Positions 4,117-20,255 of a stretch of DNA of 22,257 nt are shown in pieces. The notes under the pieces are model-generated. The model made no database searches and was not told the DNA's origin. It was given only the letters and a program-made list of their open reading frames with translations. The stretch's first letter is position 1, and each line of letters opens with the position of its first letter. The position numbers were made by a program, and so were the translations under genes. Source of the stretch: a virus; the IMG/VR virus record IMGVR_UViG_3300009100_000046, positions 1 through 22,257 of that record, one strand, 5' to 3'.

Positions 4117-4543
4117 GGGCGCCGTCGAGAGGACTGCTACCTCGGCTGCGGTCAGCCTGGTGAGCAGGGCCATGCGTGGCACCGAGAACCGGGCCAAGCA
4201 GTTGGTGGGCGTCAAGACCGGGGAGACCCGGGCCAGCATCCAGTCGGGATTCACGAGAGTGAGTCGCAATGGCGTCACCGGCCGGGTGGGGTCCAGGCTC
4301 GCGAAGGCCCACTACTACCACGAGGGCACCAGGGCACACATCATCCGACCGAAGCGGAAGAAGGCGCTCCGGTTCGTCAGCGACGGAACGGTGTACGTGC
4401 GGGCCCTCGTGCATCATCCAGGGATCGGCTCTACGCCGTTCCTGACCACCGCCCTGTTCGAGGTGGCTGTCCCCTTGGGTTTCAGGGTCGAGCGGTTCCC
4501 ACCAGCCCGTTTGATGCCCAGGGAGGGTACCCTGACTCCATGA
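4094..4543 (+). CDS. HK97 gp10-like tail terminator/completion protein
   Basis: From GTG 4094 the product has 149 residues and begins MARLQLNRGAVER. An in-frame GTG at 4067 would add nine mostly basic residues; 4094 is preferred because its start matches the short N-termini usual in this family and a GAAGAAGA tract lies just before it. Residues 10-75 follow the gp10-like pattern: a long helix, then VKTGETRASIQSG, VTGRVGSRLAKAHYYHEGTRAH. The family caps the tail tube and docks it to the head. The stop overlaps the ATG of the next gene (ATGA). Confidence 0.7.
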   Translation: MARLQLNRGAVERTATSAAVSLVSRAMRGTENRAKQLVGVKTGETRASIQSGFTRVSRNGVTGRVGSRLAKAHYYHEGTRAHIIRPKRKKALRFVSDGTVYVRALVHHPGIGSTPFLTTALFEVAVPLGFRVERFPPARLMPREGTLTP

Positions 4544-4905
4544 CCAAGCCCGCACTCGCCATTACTATCGCCGGTCGTGACATCGCACTCCAGGCTCCCA
4601 ATGATGGCCAGCTAGCTGCTGCCATGAAGATTCTGAGCAACGCTCGCCGGGACATGACTGCCGAGGAGAGAAAGCCCGAAGAGGATCGGGATTACAGTCC
4701 AGCCATCGTCGCTACTGGGAAGTTGCTTCGGATCATCGACATGCTGATTGCCAACGAGGAGGATCGTGACTTCCTCGAAGACAAGATGATTGCTGGTGAG
4801 GTTGGACTCCTGGAGCTGATCGTCGTGTTCGAGGTCTTCAACGTCGACAAGGCCGAGAAGGCCCCAACCACGGGGCCCAAGACCAGGGCTCGGCGTGTCA
4901 AGTGA
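4540..4905 (+). CDS. Tail assembly chaperone, upstream frame
   Basis: The product has 121 residues; ATG 4540 overlaps the preceding TGA. It has a short beta-rich N-terminus (ALAITIAGRDIALQAPNDGQ) and helices with DFLEDKMIAGEVGLLELIVVFEVF, as expected of the short chaperone that coats the tape measure protein before tail-tube assembly. It lies directly upstream of a longer overlapping frame and the tape measure gene, the classical position. The end is basic and low in complexity (TTGPKTRARRVK), usual at the site where ribosomes shift frame. Confidence 0.82.
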   Translation: MTKPALAITIAGRDIALQAPNDGQLAAAMKILSNARRDMTAEERKPEEDRDYSPAIVATGKLLRIIDMLIANEEDRDFLEDKMIAGEVGLLELIVVFEVFNVDKAEKAPTTGPKTRARRVK

Positions 4906-5431
4906 CCCACTTGCCAGCATTCGATCGTGGCCAATAGCCATCACCTTGGCGGAGTCTGAGTTCGTCATCCCGCCACAGAGTGCAGCCGCGTGGTTGGTGG
5001 TTCTCATGGAGGAGCGGATCCAGACTCTGGATCTCGTTCCAGGGATGCTCCGTCCGGATGATCAGCAAGAGGTTATCGACCTCCTGGCCGAGGGGCGAAT
5101 CGACCTGAAGGAGATCAACGAGGTCTGCCTGGAAGTGATCCGCTCCGCGTCGGGTCGCGACTGGTGGTGGACCATGCGGATGCTGGCAGTCCTCGCCGAC
5201 ATGTGGCCTGCCCTCTTCGGTCAGATGGCAGATATGGACTTGGAGAGGGTCCCCCTTGGCGCGTTTCTGGACCGGGCATACTTCATCTGCATTCAGCACA
5301 TGCCAGAGGACAAGCGCAAACTGTTCGATCTGGAGCTGGAAGCTGTCCCTGAAGGGGTCGAAGTAGAGCTGGATGAGGATGCCGAGAGCAGAGCATTCCT
5401 CCAGATGATGCAGCAGGCGCAGCAGTTCTAA
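4820..5431 (+). CDS. Tail assembly chaperone, downstream frame (probable frameshift extension)
   Basis: This frame is open from 4820 to 5431 and overlaps the upstream chaperone end. It is in the +1 (equivalently -2) frame. A GTG at 4895 (GTGTCAAGTGA) could start a separate 178-residue product, but its ribosome binding site is weak, so a frameshift product is more likely given how this gene pair works in other phages. A plausible +1 site is CCC-A at 4876-4879, where a Pro-tRNA can re-pair with CCA. The protein is helical with RDWWWTMRMLAVLADMWPAL and an acidic, Gln-rich end. The exact shift point is not determined. Confidence 0.75.
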   Translation, partial: SSCSRSSTSTRPRRPQPRGPRPGLGVSSDPLASIRSWPIAITLAESEFVIPPQSAAAWLVVLMEERIQTLDLVPGMLRPDDQQEVIDLLAEGRIDLKEINEVCLEVIRSASGRDWWWTMRMLAVLADMWPALFGQMADMDLERVPLGAFLDRAYFICIQHMPEDKRKLFDLELEAVPEGVEVELDEDAESRAFLQMMQQAQQF

Positions 5432-5471
5432 AGGTTAGGGATCTCCCCTATCATGTGAAGCACATGGGGAG
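5432..5471 (+). promoter_or_regulatory. Paired hairpins before the tape measure start
   Basis: The 40-base gap holds two adjacent inverted repeats: TAGGG (5436-5440) with CCCTA (5446-5450), and the perfect CATGTG (5452-5457) with CACATG (5461-5466), loop AAG. The second touches the GGGGAGG ribosome binding sequence. In an otherwise gapless operon this may modulate translation of the tape measure gene or be a processing site. Function is inferred. Confidence 0.4.
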
Positions 5472-7214
5472 GTGATCCCAATCGCCAACGGCCTCGGTAA
5501 GGCCTTCATCGAGATCCACGCCGATACCCGACCCTTCGCCAAAGAGGTGTTCGTCGAGGTCAAGGCGATCTTGGAAGCTGTCGAGAAGACGATTGGGCCC
5601 GCCTCCAAGAAGCTTGGCGAAAGTATCGGGGAGAAGGTCTCCGAAGGGGTCAAGACCAAGGGCAAGAGGATCTCCGAGACCCTCAAGCAGGCCGTGGATC
5701 GAGACCGACCCACGGTCAATGTTGATGTCGATGTCGATCGGCGCGGCTTCCGCGCCTTCCTCAACAGTACCAAGACCCAGATCCTCGGTCTTGGCAGCAC
5801 CATCAAGGACTCGTTCGGCAGCATCTTCTCTGGCCTGAAGACCTTCGTAGCGAACATCTTCAACATCCCCGAGAAGAGTCCTCTCACCTCGGTACTCACC
5901 GTGCTGGCCGTAGGAGTATTGCCAGCACTGATCCCCCTGGTGATTGCGCTGGCCGCAGCTATTGCCGACCTGGCCGGCTTCCTGTTCCTTGTTCCTCCTG
6001 CATTGTCTGCGATTATTGCCCTAGTTCCACCCTTGATCCTGGGGTTTGGGGCGATAGCAGACGCAGTGGAACTGGCCTTCACCTCGGATCCGAAGAAGTT
6101 CCGGGAGGGCCTGCGGGCGCTATCCCCGCTGATGCAGAGCCTGACCAAGACGATCAGGGAGTTTGCTCCGGCGATCGAGGACATCGGGGCGCGGATCCAG
6201 AACGCCTTCATCGGGCCCCTGACCAAGGTACTAGCCCCGGTGCTGGAACGGCTGGTCCCCCTGATTGGCAGGGGACTGGAGGGTGTATCGGCTGCCCTGG
6301 GTAGGCAGCTCGCCCAGTTCGTGGACTTCCTGGGAAGCCCCACCTTCGAAAGCTTCCTGAACAAGCTGTTCCCATCGGTCATTCGAATGATCGATCGACT
6401 CGGGCCGTCGATCATTCGACTCTTCGATGCATTCACGGTTGCCTCAGAGAAGACGCTGCCATTCCTGGAGCGGTTCGCCGATGGATTCGGGGACCTCATC
6501 GATCGCTTCGCCATGTGGATCGAGGCAGCAGCTCAGGATGGCAGACTGGAGGACTTCCTCGAAGATGCCTTCGCCAGCCTGGAGGACATCGCCGCGTTGA
6601 CGGGGTCGATCCTGGGCCTGTTCCACACCTGGTTCACGGAGACGGACGATGAGGGGCGAACGCTTCTAGAGATCTTCACTGAGCTGTTCCAGCAGTTCGA
6701 CACCTTCTTCAGGTCGGAGAACGGGCGCAAGCTGCTGGGAGACCTAGCTGATCTTGCAATCATCTTCGCCGACAACCTGAAGCTGATCATCCCTATCGCC
6801 TTCTCGTTGCTACTGCCCTTCATTGAGATCTCCATTGCCATCAACAAGATCATCCTGTTCATCCGGATCATGATCGAGGCACTGAAGCAGGCGTTGGGAC
6901 TGAAGAACAGCCTGGACAACACGAACAAGTTCATCAAGTCCCGTACCAACGTCCAGGGAACCCCCTTCGCTGAGGGTGGCTTCGTTACTCGCCCGACTGC
7001 GGCGCTGGTTGGTGAGGCTGGCCCTGAGCTGATCATCCCGCTGACGAAGCCCAACCGGGCCGCCGCTCTGCTCCACGAGGCTGGGCTGCTCGGCCCCATG
7101 AACGTGTACGTGTTCCTGGGCAGCTCGCAGATCACCGACATCTTGGACATTCGCGTGGACCGGAAGCTGGAGCAACAGGCCAGGTCGATAGCCAACGGGC
7201 CAAGGAGCACCTGA
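5472..7214 (+). CDS. Tape measure protein
   Basis: The product has 580 residues. It sets tail length and is threaded through the tail tube. The N-terminus (LGKAFIEIHADTRPF) and following helices are typical; residues about 135-205 are strongly hydrophobic with several membrane-like segments; long helices follow; near residue 499 the motif FAEGGFVTRPTAALVGEAGP marks the C-terminal domain of this family. At about 0.15 nm per residue it would give a tail of roughly 85-90 nm. The only in-frame start is GTG 5472, but the GGGGAGG site runs into it with no spacer, which is odd; a rare ATC start at 5475 or 5481 would be better spaced. The stop overlaps the next ATG. Confidence 0.95.
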   Translation: MIPIANGLGKAFIEIHADTRPFAKEVFVEVKAILEAVEKTIGPASKKLGESIGEKVSEGVKTKGKRISETLKQAVDRDRPTVNVDVDVDRRGFRAFLNSTKTQILGLGSTIKDSFGSIFSGLKTFVANIFNIPEKSPLTSVLTVLAVGVLPALIPLVIALAAAIADLAGFLFLVPPALSAIIALVPPLILGFGAIADAVELAFTSDPKKFREGLRALSPLMQSLTKTIREFAPAIEDIGARIQNAFIGPLTKVLAPVLERLVPLIGRGLEGVSAALGRQLAQFVDFLGSPTFESFLNKLFPSVIRMIDRLGPSIIRLFDAFTVASEKTLPFLERFADGFGDLIDRFAMWIEAAAQDGRLEDFLEDAFASLEDIAALTGSILGLFHTWFTETDDEGRTLLEIFTELFQQFDTFFRSENGRKLLGDLADLAIIFADNLKLIIPIAFSLLLPFIEISIAINKIILFIRIMIEALKQALGLKNSLDNTNKFIKSRTNVQGTPFAEGGFVTRPTAALVGEAGPELIIPLTKPNRAAALLHEAGLLGPMNVYVFLGSSQITDILDIRVDRKLEQQARSIANGPRST

Positions 7215-8812
7215 TGCCCACCATCACCGCCACCCCGTTCATCAACCTGTCCTACGTGCTGGTGGAAACCGACTGGGCCGACATCCCAGCGGCCACCTGC
7301 ATCCGGGTCGTTCGGGTCAGCGTGGTCGATGGCAAGGAGACCCCGCTGCGGCCCTACGTGGCACCCTGTGGCGAGTCGGGAGAGTTCCTGGAGCTATCCG
7401 GTGGGCACGCTACATTCTGGGACACTGAGGCCCCGCTGGACACGGCGTTCTTCTACCGGGCCGAGGCGTCCGACTTCGCGTTGTTGGATCATGAGATCCG
7501 GGACTCGTTCTCCCGGACCCTGACCAACGAGTGGAACCCCGGCGTGGACACCGGGCAGACATGGACCCTGGAGTCGGGTGGTGGCCTCGCCGATTTCGAC
7601 GTGGGTGCCGGCGTCGGCACCATCGCCTTGGGCGCGGTGAACAACAGTCGGCGCAGCTCCATCGGATCCAATATCTCCGACGCTGACGTGTATCGAGACG
7701 TCCTGATCCCAGTAACGGCAACCGGTGCCGCCATTCAAAGCGCGGTAATGACCAGGTATATCGACACCGGGAACATGTACCGGTACCAGGCAGCGTTCGA
7801 AACCACCGGCCTGATCACCTTGTCCATCATCCGCCGAATTGCTGCGGCGGACACGACGGTGGCAACACTAGCCACCGGTATCAGCTACTCCCCAGGAGAC
7901 TGGTTCACTGTCCGGGGCAAGGTGATGGGCACCTCCCACATGGCCAAGATCTGGCTCAGGGGAACCACCGAGCCATCCGCCTGGATGGTGACTGGCACCG
8001 ACTCCTCAGTTTTGGTGGCTGGCAAGGTGGGTGGTCGGGAGATCCTTGCTGCGGGTAACACGAATGCGTTGCCGGTGACCCTGTCGGTGGACAACTTCCT
8101 CGCCGTGGTCGACTTCGTGGTCACCGAGACCGAGCCGTTGACGATGCCCAGCAATGGCTACTTCTGGCTGAAGGACCCTGTGCGTCCATGCCTGGATCGG
8201 CGGCTGACCACCAGCAAGATGCTGACCCCTGACTGCCCACCAGGTTTGGGTTTGTTCTTCATCAGCATGGACACCGAAGGGTACAACCCGAACGCGATCC
8301 AGGTGCTGCCGACCAACTCCCCCGACCTGATCCATGTGAGCCGGTCCCGTAGCAAGGTCAGCAGCACGTTGACGATTGCCACCCGTACCTTCCAGGACCG
8401 GGACGATGCCCTGACACTCAATGCGGCAGGTGGCCCGCTGCTGTTCCAGGCGGCACCTGACTATGGCATCCCAGACCGATACATGGGCATTGGCACTATT
8501 GGCGTCACCCGTGGCCTGCCAGACCACCGTTACCAGGCCCGCATCGTCACCATGCCATTCGCCGAGGTGCTCCGGCCAGTGGGTACTACACAGGGGATCT
8601 GTGGCTCCAGATTTATGGATCTTTGCGACATCTACTCCACCTGGGAGGAGATGGAGGATGCGGGCCTGACCTACGAGAGTCTGATCGCTGGAGCTGCATC
8701 CCCGCCGGCCGAGGGCTTCAACAGTTGGGACGACATCGAGGCCGGATACGCCGACTGGGATGCCGTCGAGGCTGCGTTCCCCACCTGGGGCGATGTAGCA
8801 GGTGGCCCCTGA
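7214..8812 (+). CDS. Minor tail protein with LamG-like insert and W-D repeats
   Basis: The product has 532 residues; ATG 7214 overlaps the tape measure stop. Residues about 95-300 form a jelly-roll (laminin G/concanavalin-like) insert beginning DSFSRTLTNEWN and DTGQTWTLESGG, a carbohydrate-binding type common in phage minor tail proteins. The flanking parts are the distal tail/hub-like body. The last 65 residues carry short repeats built on Trp plus acids (STWEEMED, NSWDDIEAG, ADWDAVEAA, PTWGDVAGG), a known signature of actinobacteriophage minor tail proteins. It probably sits at the tail tip and helps bind the host surface. Confidence 0.85.
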   Translation: MPTITATPFINLSYVLVETDWADIPAATCIRVVRVSVVDGKETPLRPYVAPCGESGEFLELSGGHATFWDTEAPLDTAFFYRAEASDFALLDHEIRDSFSRTLTNEWNPGVDTGQTWTLESGGGLADFDVGAGVGTIALGAVNNSRRSSIGSNISDADVYRDVLIPVTATGAAIQSAVMTRYIDTGNMYRYQAAFETTGLITLSIIRRIAAADTTVATLATGISYSPGDWFTVRGKVMGTSHMAKIWLRGTTEPSAWMVTGTDSSVLVAGKVGGREILAAGNTNALPVTLSVDNFLAVVDFVVTETEPLTMPSNGYFWLKDPVRPCLDRRLTTSKMLTPDCPPGLGLFFISMDTEGYNPNAIQVLPTNSPDLIHVSRSRSKVSSTLTIATRTFQDRDDALTLNAAGGPLLFQAAPDYGIPDRYMGIGTIGVTRGLPDHRYQARIVTMPFAEVLRPVGTTQGICGSRFMDLCDIYSTWEEMEDAGLTYESLIAGAASPPAEGFNSWDDIEAGYADWDAVEAAFPTWGDVAGGP

Positions 8813-18403: not shown

Positions 18404-18472
18404 CGGACACGGGAGGGATCGAACCTCCATCCAGGCTCCTCGCCTGTGATCTGCCTTTTGATCTACGTATGC
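18404..18472 (-). tRNA. Degenerate tRNA-like sequence, isotype not assignable
   Basis: Acceptor GCATACG pairs with CGTGTCC except for one C-C mismatch; TA, D-arm GATC-AAAAGGCA-GATC and T-arm GGAGG-TTCGATC-CCTCC are canonical. The anticodon arm is short: CAGGC-GAGGA-GCCTG, a 5-base loop, or a 7-base loop CGAGGAG with G at position 33. It may be a decaying gene or a specialised tRNA. Confidence 0.5.
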
Positions 18473-18571: not shown

Positions 18572-18622
18572 TGGCCCACGAGTCATGCCAGACGCTTTCC
18601 TTCTGGTCACTCTCGAGGGTTG

Positions 18623-18699
18623 TGGACTCGGCAGGATTCGAACCTGCACTCATTCCTGGCCGCGACCAGGGCGCTCATGCCCGTTGGAGCTACGAGTCC
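18623..18699 (-). tRNA. tRNA with 6-base anticodon loop, isotype uncertain
   Basis: Acceptor GGACTCG pairs with CGAGTCC, D-stem GCTC/GAGC, T-arm GCAGG-TTCGAAT-CCTGC, discriminator A and overall 77-base length are all normal. The anticodon arm is CCTGG-TCGCGG-CCAGG: the stem is perfect but the loop has six bases. If the T is position 33 the anticodon reads CGC (Ala), yet the G3-T70 pair of Ala is missing. Isotype left open. Confidence 0.72.
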
Positions 18700-18994: not shown

Positions 18995-18998
18995 ATTT

Positions 18999-19087
18999 AA
19001 ACGATACTGGGATTTGCACCCAGGTGATCCTTTCAAGGGATCTCCGGATTTGACGTCCGGTGCCTTTGGCTTCTCGGCAACATCGTT
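18999..19087 (-). tRNA. Class II tRNA-like gene, apparent TCA anticodon
   Basis: Acceptor AACGATG pairs with TATCGTT (an eighth A-T pair is possible), anticodon stem CCGGA/TCCGG with 7-base loop CGTCAAA, long variable arm GATCC-CTTGAAA-GGATC, T-arm CTGGG-TGCAAAT-CCCAG. By geometry the anticodon is TCA (reads UGA). Position 33 is G, the T-loop has TGC instead of TTC, and the D-loop lacks the GG pair. Read from the T as position 33, the anticodon would be CAA (Leu), but then the stem fails. Confidence 0.58.
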
Positions 19088-19155
19088 TTCGAGGTGAGAT
19101 CAACACGTCGCGATCCGCGACTACCCAGCGCCATTTAAGACCACAGGTCATTCAT

Positions 19156-19231
19156 GTGACATCGCGCTCTGCCATTGAGCTACGGGGCCATGAGAGAGGC
19201 CCCGCCGGGATTCGAACCCGGAACCTCAGTT
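19156..19231 (-). tRNA. Candidate circularly permuted tRNA (3' half before 5' half)
   Basis: In the direction of transcription a variable loop AGGTT, T-arm CCGGG-TTCGAAT-CCCGG and 3' acceptor CGGGGCC (19226-19198) come first. After 8 bases (19197-19190) follows 5' acceptor GGCCCCG, TA, and D-arm GCTC-AATGGCA-GAGC (19189-about 19165). The two acceptor strands match over 7 bp. No other 3' half fits the 5' half on its downstream side. The anticodon stem is not convincing: only about 3 of 5 pairs form at the expected positions. An orphan 5' half beside a separate RNA is the alternative. Confidence 0.48.
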
Positions 19232-19459
19232 GTCTTGCCCGTGACCGGTCGATCTGAGCGTTGACGTTTTAGGTTCAGTCTGGAGCAATAGCCTCAGACT
19301 ATGCCCTACGGCATCAATGATGCGCAGAGCTGAATCTTACGTAGAGTCGGATTTTGGTGGGGCGTCCGACAACCCTCGTACTGTGCTCCTACCCGGCCAA
19401 GCCGGGGGTCTATGGGGCAGTTCGCGTTTACGGTAGCCAACTGCCAAGTCACCGGGGCC
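19198..19459 (-). ncRNA. Structured RNA, possible long-insert tRNA-like (tmRNA-like) molecule
   Basis: A second GGCCCCG (19459-19453) also pairs with the acceptor CGGGGCC at 19204-19198. Nine bases later CAGTTG (19443-19438) pairs with CAACTG (19232-19227), which is followed by a 5-base variable loop and the T-arm with exact tRNA spacing. Between them lie hairpins GGCAGTT/AACTGCC (alternative to the former), CCCGGC/GCCGGG, TCCGAC/GTCGGA, ATGCC/GGCAT and AGTCTG/CAGACT. A missing D-stem and a ~190-base insert recall tmRNA, but no tag ending in LAA and no G3-U70 pair are seen. Confidence 0.4.
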
Positions 19460-19520: not shown

Positions 19521-20255
19521 TCAGAGTGCGAACAGGTAACCGAAGATCTTGTTACCGATGTTCCGGTCGATGACCTCGACGCTGTTCGCGGTTTCTCGAG
19601 CGAACTTCACTGCCTGACGCAGGACTTCGATCCGCTCCAGGAGCTGGGTCACCCGGGCCTGCGGTACCGCACCGGAGAACTTGACAGTGGTCCAGTCGCC
19701 GACCACGGTGTCCTCCATCCACACGTCCACCTGCGCAGGGTGCTTGTCCGTGGCCTTGGACTTCTCCAGAGTACGGGGCACCTTCTTGCTGCGGGTGGTC
19801 GACGTCGACTTGGTAGCCCAGGCGTCAGCGTTCGTGTCGTAGTGCCACTCCTCGGCCGGGTCCAGGACCGGTAGCCGGGATACCACAGTCCGTACGTCGG
19901 TGAGCTGCTTCTCCAGGAACAGCAGCGTGGCGACTGGGACCTTCTCCAGGAGCACCTTGCCGCCGACGACCACGTCAGCGAAGGCGACGGTGTTGGTGTG
20001 TTCCTGGGTGGCTACGACGTCGAACAGCCTGGTCAGGTACTGGGCCGCGTCGTTGAGCAGGTGCTCGGCCCTGAGCTGCACCTTGTTGCCTTCGCCAGGA
20101 AGCTGCTCACCGTCGTCGTCACGCGGACGGTAGGTGCGCACCTGGCCGTGGAACGGCTCCTTCTTCTGGAGCTGGTGGTAGATCTTGGTGAATGCGCCGT
20201 TGGTGTCACCCTTCACACCCTTGACGATCGCCACGATCTGGTTGAGCTTGGCCAT
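19521..20255 (-). CDS. DUF7873-like phage protein
   Basis: The product has 244 residues from ATG 20255 behind GGAG. It shows the features of a protein family common in Streptomyces and its phages: MAKLNQIVAIVKGVKGDTNG, FHGQVRTYRPRDDDGEQLPG, LLFLEKQLTDVRTVVSRLPV, LDPAEEWHY, TDKHPAQVDVWMEDTVVGDW and a C-terminal GNKIFGYLFAL. The family has no established biochemical role. It is the largest soluble protein in the early-type leftward region and stands alone between RNA elements, followed by a hairpin. Confidence 0.88.
   Translation of the reverse strand: MAKLNQIVAIVKGVKGDTNGAFTKIYHQLQKKEPFHGQVRTYRPRDDDGEQLPGEGNKVQLRAEHLLNDAAQYLTRLFDVVATQEHTNTVAFADVVVGGKVLLEKVPVATLLFLEKQLTDVRTVVSRLPVLDPAEEWHYDTNADAWATKSTSTTRSKKVPRTLEKSKATDKHPAQVDVWMEDTVVGDWTTVKFSGAVPQARVTQLLERIEVLRQAVKFARETANSVEVIDRNIGNKIFGYLFAL

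Follow-up and report, generated by a model that had tools for sequence, protein, structure and literature searches.

A permuted, tRNA-shaped RNA element adjacent to DUF7873 genes in phages and Streptomycetaceae

Does a phage carry a circularly permuted tRNA gene, or an RNA that takes the shape of a tRNA for another use? The question is raised by a 22,257-nt stretch of viral DNA (here called the window; IMG/VR record IMGVR_UViG_3300009100_000046), whose minus strand presents, from 19221 to 19166, a permuted set of tRNA parts, arranged as T-arm, acceptor 3' strand, linker, acceptor 5' strand, TA and D-arm (Table 1). A preliminary description read these parts as a possible permuted tRNA gene whose product would be joined in the anticodon region. 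As in the permuted tRNA genes of red and green algae and of Thermofilum, the 3' half comes first and only a short linker separates the facing acceptor strands. Most likely the element is not a tRNA but a noncoding RNA shaped like one. A Y-RNA-like mimic of tRNA, coupled to DUF7873 (the domain of the protein encoded beside it), is the better description.

The permuted module and the helices that surround it

Sequence and detector both bear out the T-arm and acceptor 3' strand placed 8 bases ahead of the acceptor 5' strand, TA and D-arm, and the match of the acceptor strands over 7 bp holds at 7/7 pairs. Free-energy folding of the window recovers the three arms with modest z-scores (-0.2 to -2.0), so that energy alone would not make the case; comparison among relatives does. 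ARAGORN and Rfam find normal tRNAs nearby and none covering either half of the module, and joining the halves forms no 7-nt anticodon loop with a 5-bp stem, so that the poor anticodon-stem pairing had been judged correctly. Three further tRNA-like genes lie on the same strand: one that ARAGORN calls a tRNA-SeC (18998-19088, anticodon tca, long variable arm), which may be an unusual UGA-reading or a degenerate Ser/Leu-type tRNA, and two others at 18622-18699 and 18404-18472, one having an irregular anticodon loop (ARAGORN 'tRNA-???') and the other found by Rfam only (34.5 bits).

Table 1. Coordinates of the element, its neighbours and compared loci
Feature	Position	Strand	Basis or remark
DUF7873 protein gene (PF25283), 244 aa, presumed RNA partner	window 19521..20255	-	Pfam E=1.5e-99
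Conserved downstream motif of element A, AGTCTGAGGCTATTGCTCCAGACT	window 19277..19300	-	comparison with A loci
Whole conserved RNA element B, ~124 nt, permuted tRNA-like head on covarying basal stem	window 19131..19254	-	model R1
Conserved 5' flank, GATCGACC	window 19247..19254	-	TCGA near-invariant in alignment A5
Outer basal helix, 5' strand, GGTCACGGG	window 19238..19246	-	9 contiguous pairs with 19139-19147, 3 of them G-U
T-arm, CCGGG-TTCGAAT-CCCGG	window 19205..19221	-	sequence, detector, RNA fold
Acceptor 3' strand, CGGGGCC	window 19198..19204	-	7/7 Watson-Crick pairs with 19183-19189
8-nt linker, TCTCTCAT	window 19190..19197	-	between facing acceptor strands
Acceptor 5' strand, GGCCCCG	window 19183..19189	-	pairs with acceptor 3' strand
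TA	window 19181..19182	-	between acceptor 5' strand and D-arm
D-arm, GCTC-AATGGCA-GAGC	window 19166..19180	-	sequence, detector
Outer basal helix, 3' strand, CCTGTGGTC	window 19139..19147	-	partner of 19238-19246
Conserved 3' flank, TTAAATGG	window 19131..19138	-	TTAAA invariant in alignment A5
TROVE/YrlA-like and DUF7873/B region	L291 2164, 4479, 4312-6234, 7951-8685, 8917		
Trinavirus same-slot locus, Ro-like gene and RNAs (Trina)	L315 13335, 14240, 14459		
Trinavirus same-slot locus, DUF7873 and A/B (NiceHouse)	L004 8732-9266		

DUF7873 loci carry one or two permuted RNAs, A first and then B, and the element of the window is of the B type. Conserved RNA extends beyond the module that was noticed first, over 19254-19131, and takes in an outer helix with its flanks. 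The covariance model R1, built from 33 relatives with the window left out, matches the window over its full length (102.6 bits, E=3.1e-21) with the outer helix fully paired, which is the outcome of the covariance-model search that had been proposed as a check. Within alignment A5 of 33 relatives, two-sided changes occur at 9/9 pairs of the outer helix, 90.2% of its cells are paired, and the structure as a whole has a covariation score of 0.662, as compared with 0.201 after shuffling. Among 66 non-redundant B elements, compared at loci that have the TCGA and TTAAA flanks, the longest run of pairs averages 7.0 for cognate outer-helix strands and 4.2 for non-cognate ones, and none of 200 strand shuffles reached the observed mean. 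The acceptor, T and D arms were picked by pairing during detection and the building of R1, and their pairing is therefore partly built in, whereas the outer helix played no part in that choice. The inner stem beside the head pairs above shuffles in A, in B and in other classes (0/200 in each), with only 48% of it paired in A5, where it is misaligned.

Because the strands past the D-arm and the T-arm form the inner stem and then the 9-bp helix, no anticodon loop is left, and the proposal of a tRNA gene joined in the anticodon region is not supported: inner stem and covarying helix occupy the place where there would have to be a loop to ligate. A true permuted tRNA gene, from which the linker is removed and the anticodon-side ends are joined to give a working tRNA, is accordingly a very improbable reading of the element, although its arms and acceptor are canonical, CCA is encoded in many relatives, tRNA-like variable regions occur in some members from Klebsiella, Rhizobium and marine phages, and an RNA ligase lies near the DUF7873 locus of phage Racecar. 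The covarying helix would need to be removed, and unlike the known permuted tRNA genes the element has no anticodon arm or joining site, its strands running on into conserved helices. Acceptor sequences also vary freely, with 58 different 5' strands in 91 B matches, and such variation among close relatives does not suggest one tRNA identity.

A second possible origin is that the halves belong to two separate normal tRNAs. Duplicated tRNA-Asn genes in Streptomyces do give permuted matches, and the module might on this account be what is left of two ordinary tRNA genes in tandem, with facing acceptor strands that pair by chance. We give this origin almost no credence, since the element has a covarying stem and is conserved in phages whose hosts belong to several bacterial phyla. 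In the tRNA-Asn control both complete tRNAs are recovered by ARAGORN, which predicts none over the modules of the four DUF7873 loci examined (L219, L264, L177 and L040), so the halves are not parts of two tRNAs in these relatives.

The linker nevertheless bears a mark of tRNA-type ends in many members of the family. A discriminator followed by CCA stands immediately after the acceptor 3' strand in 143 of 305 module matches, as compared with at most 5 of the 305 for CCA at any other linker position, and in many relatives the linker consists of discriminator and CCA plus a short leader. Since this CCA is placed as in a mature tRNA 3' end, it points to an opening of the linker by enzymes that process tRNA, and the earlier idea of end-processing at the junction is plausible to that extent; the copy in the window has TCTC there and no CCA, and for this copy we only infer that the linker would be opened. 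Opening of a precursor by tRNA processing enzymes has been proposed for two-piece tmRNA (PMC3985003). That RNA likewise has a permuted gene, and its precursor would be cut at the acceptor end into two pieces that stay paired and have a CCA end. The present element differs from it in having a canonical D-stem and, in the window, an acceptor pair C3-G70 in place of G3-U70, and the window gives no match to the Rfam tmRNA model, which matches a single relative (L045) weakly and locally; a tag reading frame was not noticed.

Linkage of the RNA to DUF7873 in phages and bacteria

The DUF7873 gene of the window ends at 19521, upstream of the start of the RNA at 19254 and on the same strand. Direct DNA relatives of the window were not found in phage records (megablast and blastn, E 1e-5), nor did the exact module pattern match in viral contigs, and relatives were reached via DUF7873 and via short module matches. 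By tblastn, DUF7873 occurs in 73 phage records, with Vibrio, Gordonia, Rhizobium, Klebsiella, Serratia, Arthrobacter, Pseudanabaena, Rhodococcus and Microcoleus represented. An unannotated gap behind the gene holds one or two permuted modules in Racecar, Phendrix, NiceHouse, Keelan, Pam2, RHph_Y65, FBKp24 and others, so that the arrangement is present in phages of actinobacteria, cyanobacteria, Rhizobium, Klebsiella and Vibrio, and the comparison of this locus in relatives finds the circular permutation conserved. The RNA family beside DUF7873 is apparently undescribed, and DUF7873 is not mentioned in the open-licence literature that we searched.

To these we added 240 further loci, obtained by profile scans in three sets of 80 (two sets from viral contigs and one from genome contigs). 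The sample is skewed toward actinobacterial hosts and their phages. We applied to it a detector of the permuted order set out above, from T-arm to D-arm, with the two acceptor strands pairing across the linker. A permuted module lies at most 1.5 kb downstream of DUF7873 on the same strand in 216 of these 240 phage and bacterial loci (75/80, 68/80 and 73/80 in the three sets), and the detector gave 283 matches inside that 1.5 kb as against 8 in all other flanks on both strands. Element A typically lies about 90 nt and element B about 240 nt after the stop codon, and B was recovered by a later search in many loci missed by the detector. At most DUF7873 loci of Chloroflexota, Herpetosiphon included, the RNA was not detectable, which implies that DUF7873 can exist without the RNA or with a form that is not recognised. 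Among the conserved bacterial neighbours of DUF7873 that were listed, the largest other cluster appears in 12 of 80 loci. By eye, a gene resembling an ADP-ribosylglycohydrolase adjoins DUF7873 in Streptomyces himastatinicus (L264, 1687-2928) and Herpetosiphon (L243, 3825-4823).

The RNA is not confined to phages: it is carried by about two thirds of the Streptomycetaceae genomes sampled. DUF7873 was found in 64 of 101 genomes, and a full-length R1 match lies next to it on the same strand in all 64, at -13 to 301 nt downstream (median 210), with scores above 65 bits at 62 of the genes and of 52-55 bits at two. The 37 genomes without DUF7873 have no full-length R1 match of 50 bits or more among the matches listed, and the other weaker matches that we checked were duplicated tRNA-Asn genes or the heads of Ro-linked RNAs. 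A full-length, B-like match of 45 bits stands at a contig end (L297; G045:C387:222-338) in a genome, G045, in which DUF7873 was not detected.

Element A, whose head also shows covariation, is represented in the window by its conserved downstream motif (Table 1); its tRNA-like core is not recognisable there, an intact A is absent, and R1 has no second full-length match in the window. The core of A appears to have been lost in L264 and L257 as well as in the window, with the flanking conserved sequence and B retained. In L099, the A/B pair (4455-4578 and 4610-4732, minus) lies on the strand opposite to DUF7873, and a second DUF7873 motif was not found on the A/B strand of this locus.

The fixed spacing after the stop codon, on the same strand, together with an apparent terminator hairpin 3' of B seen by eye in Streptomyces-type loci, would also suit a 3'-UTR element of the DUF7873 mRNA, whose head would either bring in RNase P or RNase Z, so that the message is cut or stabilised, or sense tRNA-like ligands and so regulate DUF7873. 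We regard such an element as improbable. The opposite-strand pair of L099 indicates that the RNAs need not be co-transcribed with DUF7873, a processing signal would require neither two copies nor a covarying basal stem, and the exchange with Ro plus permuted RNAs in the same slot of Trinavirus genomes, described below, favours a ribonucleoprotein (RNP) role.

Comparison with Ro60 and YrlA

YrlA, a bacterial Y RNA that mimics tRNA, shares the plan of the element: its two ends come together in a basal stem, to which Ro60/Rsr is bound, and the stem carries a permuted head (T, acceptor and D arms) that docks on PNPase (PMC8394870; RYPER). As in YrlA/Ro60 loci, a protein gene adjoins the RNA, and in Ro phages, too, there are often two RNAs per locus. 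The Rfam model of YrlA (RF02553) matches the window weakly (39.4 bits, E=1.2e-5), below its curated cut-off of 69, and the relatives likewise fall under the cut-off wherever they were tested. The element differs from YrlA in its own basal stem (AUCGA - 9 bp - UUAAA), in the discriminator and CCA often encoded at its linker, in its place downstream of the gene, and in its partner gene DUF7873.

DUF7873 is not Ro60 by sequence or predicted fold, since it has no sequence relative with a solved structure (best E 0.57) and no significant Foldseek match. AlphaFold models its 244 residues as a confident alpha/beta protein (pLDDT 92.8, pTM 0.76), for which Foldseek returned no match with E below 0.001 in the PDB or in a viral library and one weak match to a crAss-phage protein (A0A7M1RW91, TM 0.45/0.59). 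A recognisable RNA-binding fold was not found in the model.

Ro-linked permuted RNAs do occur in the same hosts and their phages. In the same bacteria, the modules linked to Ro match R1 only over the head (positions ~29-89) and have different basal stems, and the flanks AUCGA and UUAAA of the covarying stem beside DUF7873 differ from those of the Ro-linked RNAs. The Streptomyces phages Moab, Gilson and BRock contain unannotated, YrlA-like permuted modules near annotated Ro-like or RNA-binding proteins, and Ro-carrying Streptomyces phages have two unannotated YrlA-like RNAs per locus (L007 at 3670 and 5004; L010 at 1807 and 3004; L008 at 4653 and 5006). Chen et al. reportedly described tRNA-mimic Y RNAs beside Ro60 in phages in 2014.

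One could therefore take the element for a YrlA-type Y RNA that works with a phage or host Ro60/TROVE protein. The shared head, the Rfam match and the Ro-linked modules of Streptomyces phages all point in this direction, and in the Streptomycetaceae sample TROVE is present in 44 of the 64 DUF7873 genomes, so that the two are not exclusive in bacteria and in fact co-occur more often than expected (odds ratio 3.6, p=0.003, with no correction for kinship). We nonetheless consider a Ro60-dependent role unlikely. The 22-kb record of the window, a fragment, has no Ro60/TROVE gene and carries DUF7873 in its place beside the RNA; TROVE is absent from the complete relatives Racecar, Phendrix, NiceHouse and Keelan, which have the RNA, and from six bacterial genomes with DUF7873; and of eleven records, five contain TROVE and another five contain DUF7873 without it. 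Filing the element as YrlA was rejected, as the head agrees and the score, stem and partner do not. One Streptomycetaceae genome (L291; Table 1) has a TROVE gene with YrlA-like modules about 2 kb from a DUF7873 gene with element B.

Two Trinavirus genomes illustrate an exchange of the two systems at one position (Table 1). The order in Trina is tRNA-Asn, tRNA-Tyr, permuted RNAs, Ro-like gene, band-7 gene, tRNA-Lys and tRNA-Arg(cct), and that in NiceHouse is tRNA-Asn, tRNA-Tyr, tRNA-Lys, DUF7873, A and B, tRNA-Lys, band-7 gene and tRNA-Arg(cct). One slot is thus occupied by two unrelated proteins with similar RNAs, which argues for equivalent roles.

A two-component model and its meaning

We think it probable that the element is a noncoding RNA and not a tRNA gene, and that it forms with DUF7873 a two-component locus, a new tRNA-mimic RNP family that is the counterpart of Ro60-YrlA. 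By analogy, DUF7873 and its RNA may together fill the role that belongs elsewhere to Ro60 and Y RNA. A fuller version, to which we give an even chance, holds that DUF7873 and one or two permuted tRNA-mimic RNAs make up an undescribed RNP system of phages from several bacterial phyla and of many actinobacterial chromosomes, that this system stands in for Ro60/Y RNA, and that tRNA enzymes yield a two-piece mimic with a CCA end.

The comparisons establish the conserved anatomy, the covariation of the basal helix, the close linkage to DUF7873 and, in many members, the tRNA-type ends encoded at the linker. The head imitates three tRNA arms (acceptor, T and D), permuted, and where the anticodon arm would be there is a two-helix basal stem joining the RNA's own ends. 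What we infer about expression, binding, processing, partner and purpose of the RNA can be put as follows. As Ro60 does with YrlA, DUF7873 may hold the basal stem (AUCGA ... UUAAA). Enzymes of tRNA maturation (RNase P, 3' trimming) would open the linker, so that the mimic of tRNA would consist of two pieces and have a CCA end, and this mimic, like the head of YrlA on PNPase, might dock the RNP onto a partner that recognises tRNA, such as a nuclease, a synthetase, EF-Tu or the ribosome. Judged by Ro60-YrlA with PNPase, the purpose is probably RNA quality control or tRNA protection, and the phage copy would serve the same end during infection.

A domain without assigned function thereby gains a molecular context in a large share of the genomes of the Streptomyces family and in many phages, and tRNA-mimic RNAs of the Y RNA type are not limited to Ro60. 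If the CCA ends are real, the element would be one more bacterial RNA that is matured like a tRNA without being one. The role of bacterial Y RNAs would become testable in two unrelated protein settings, including the natural swap in Trinavirus.
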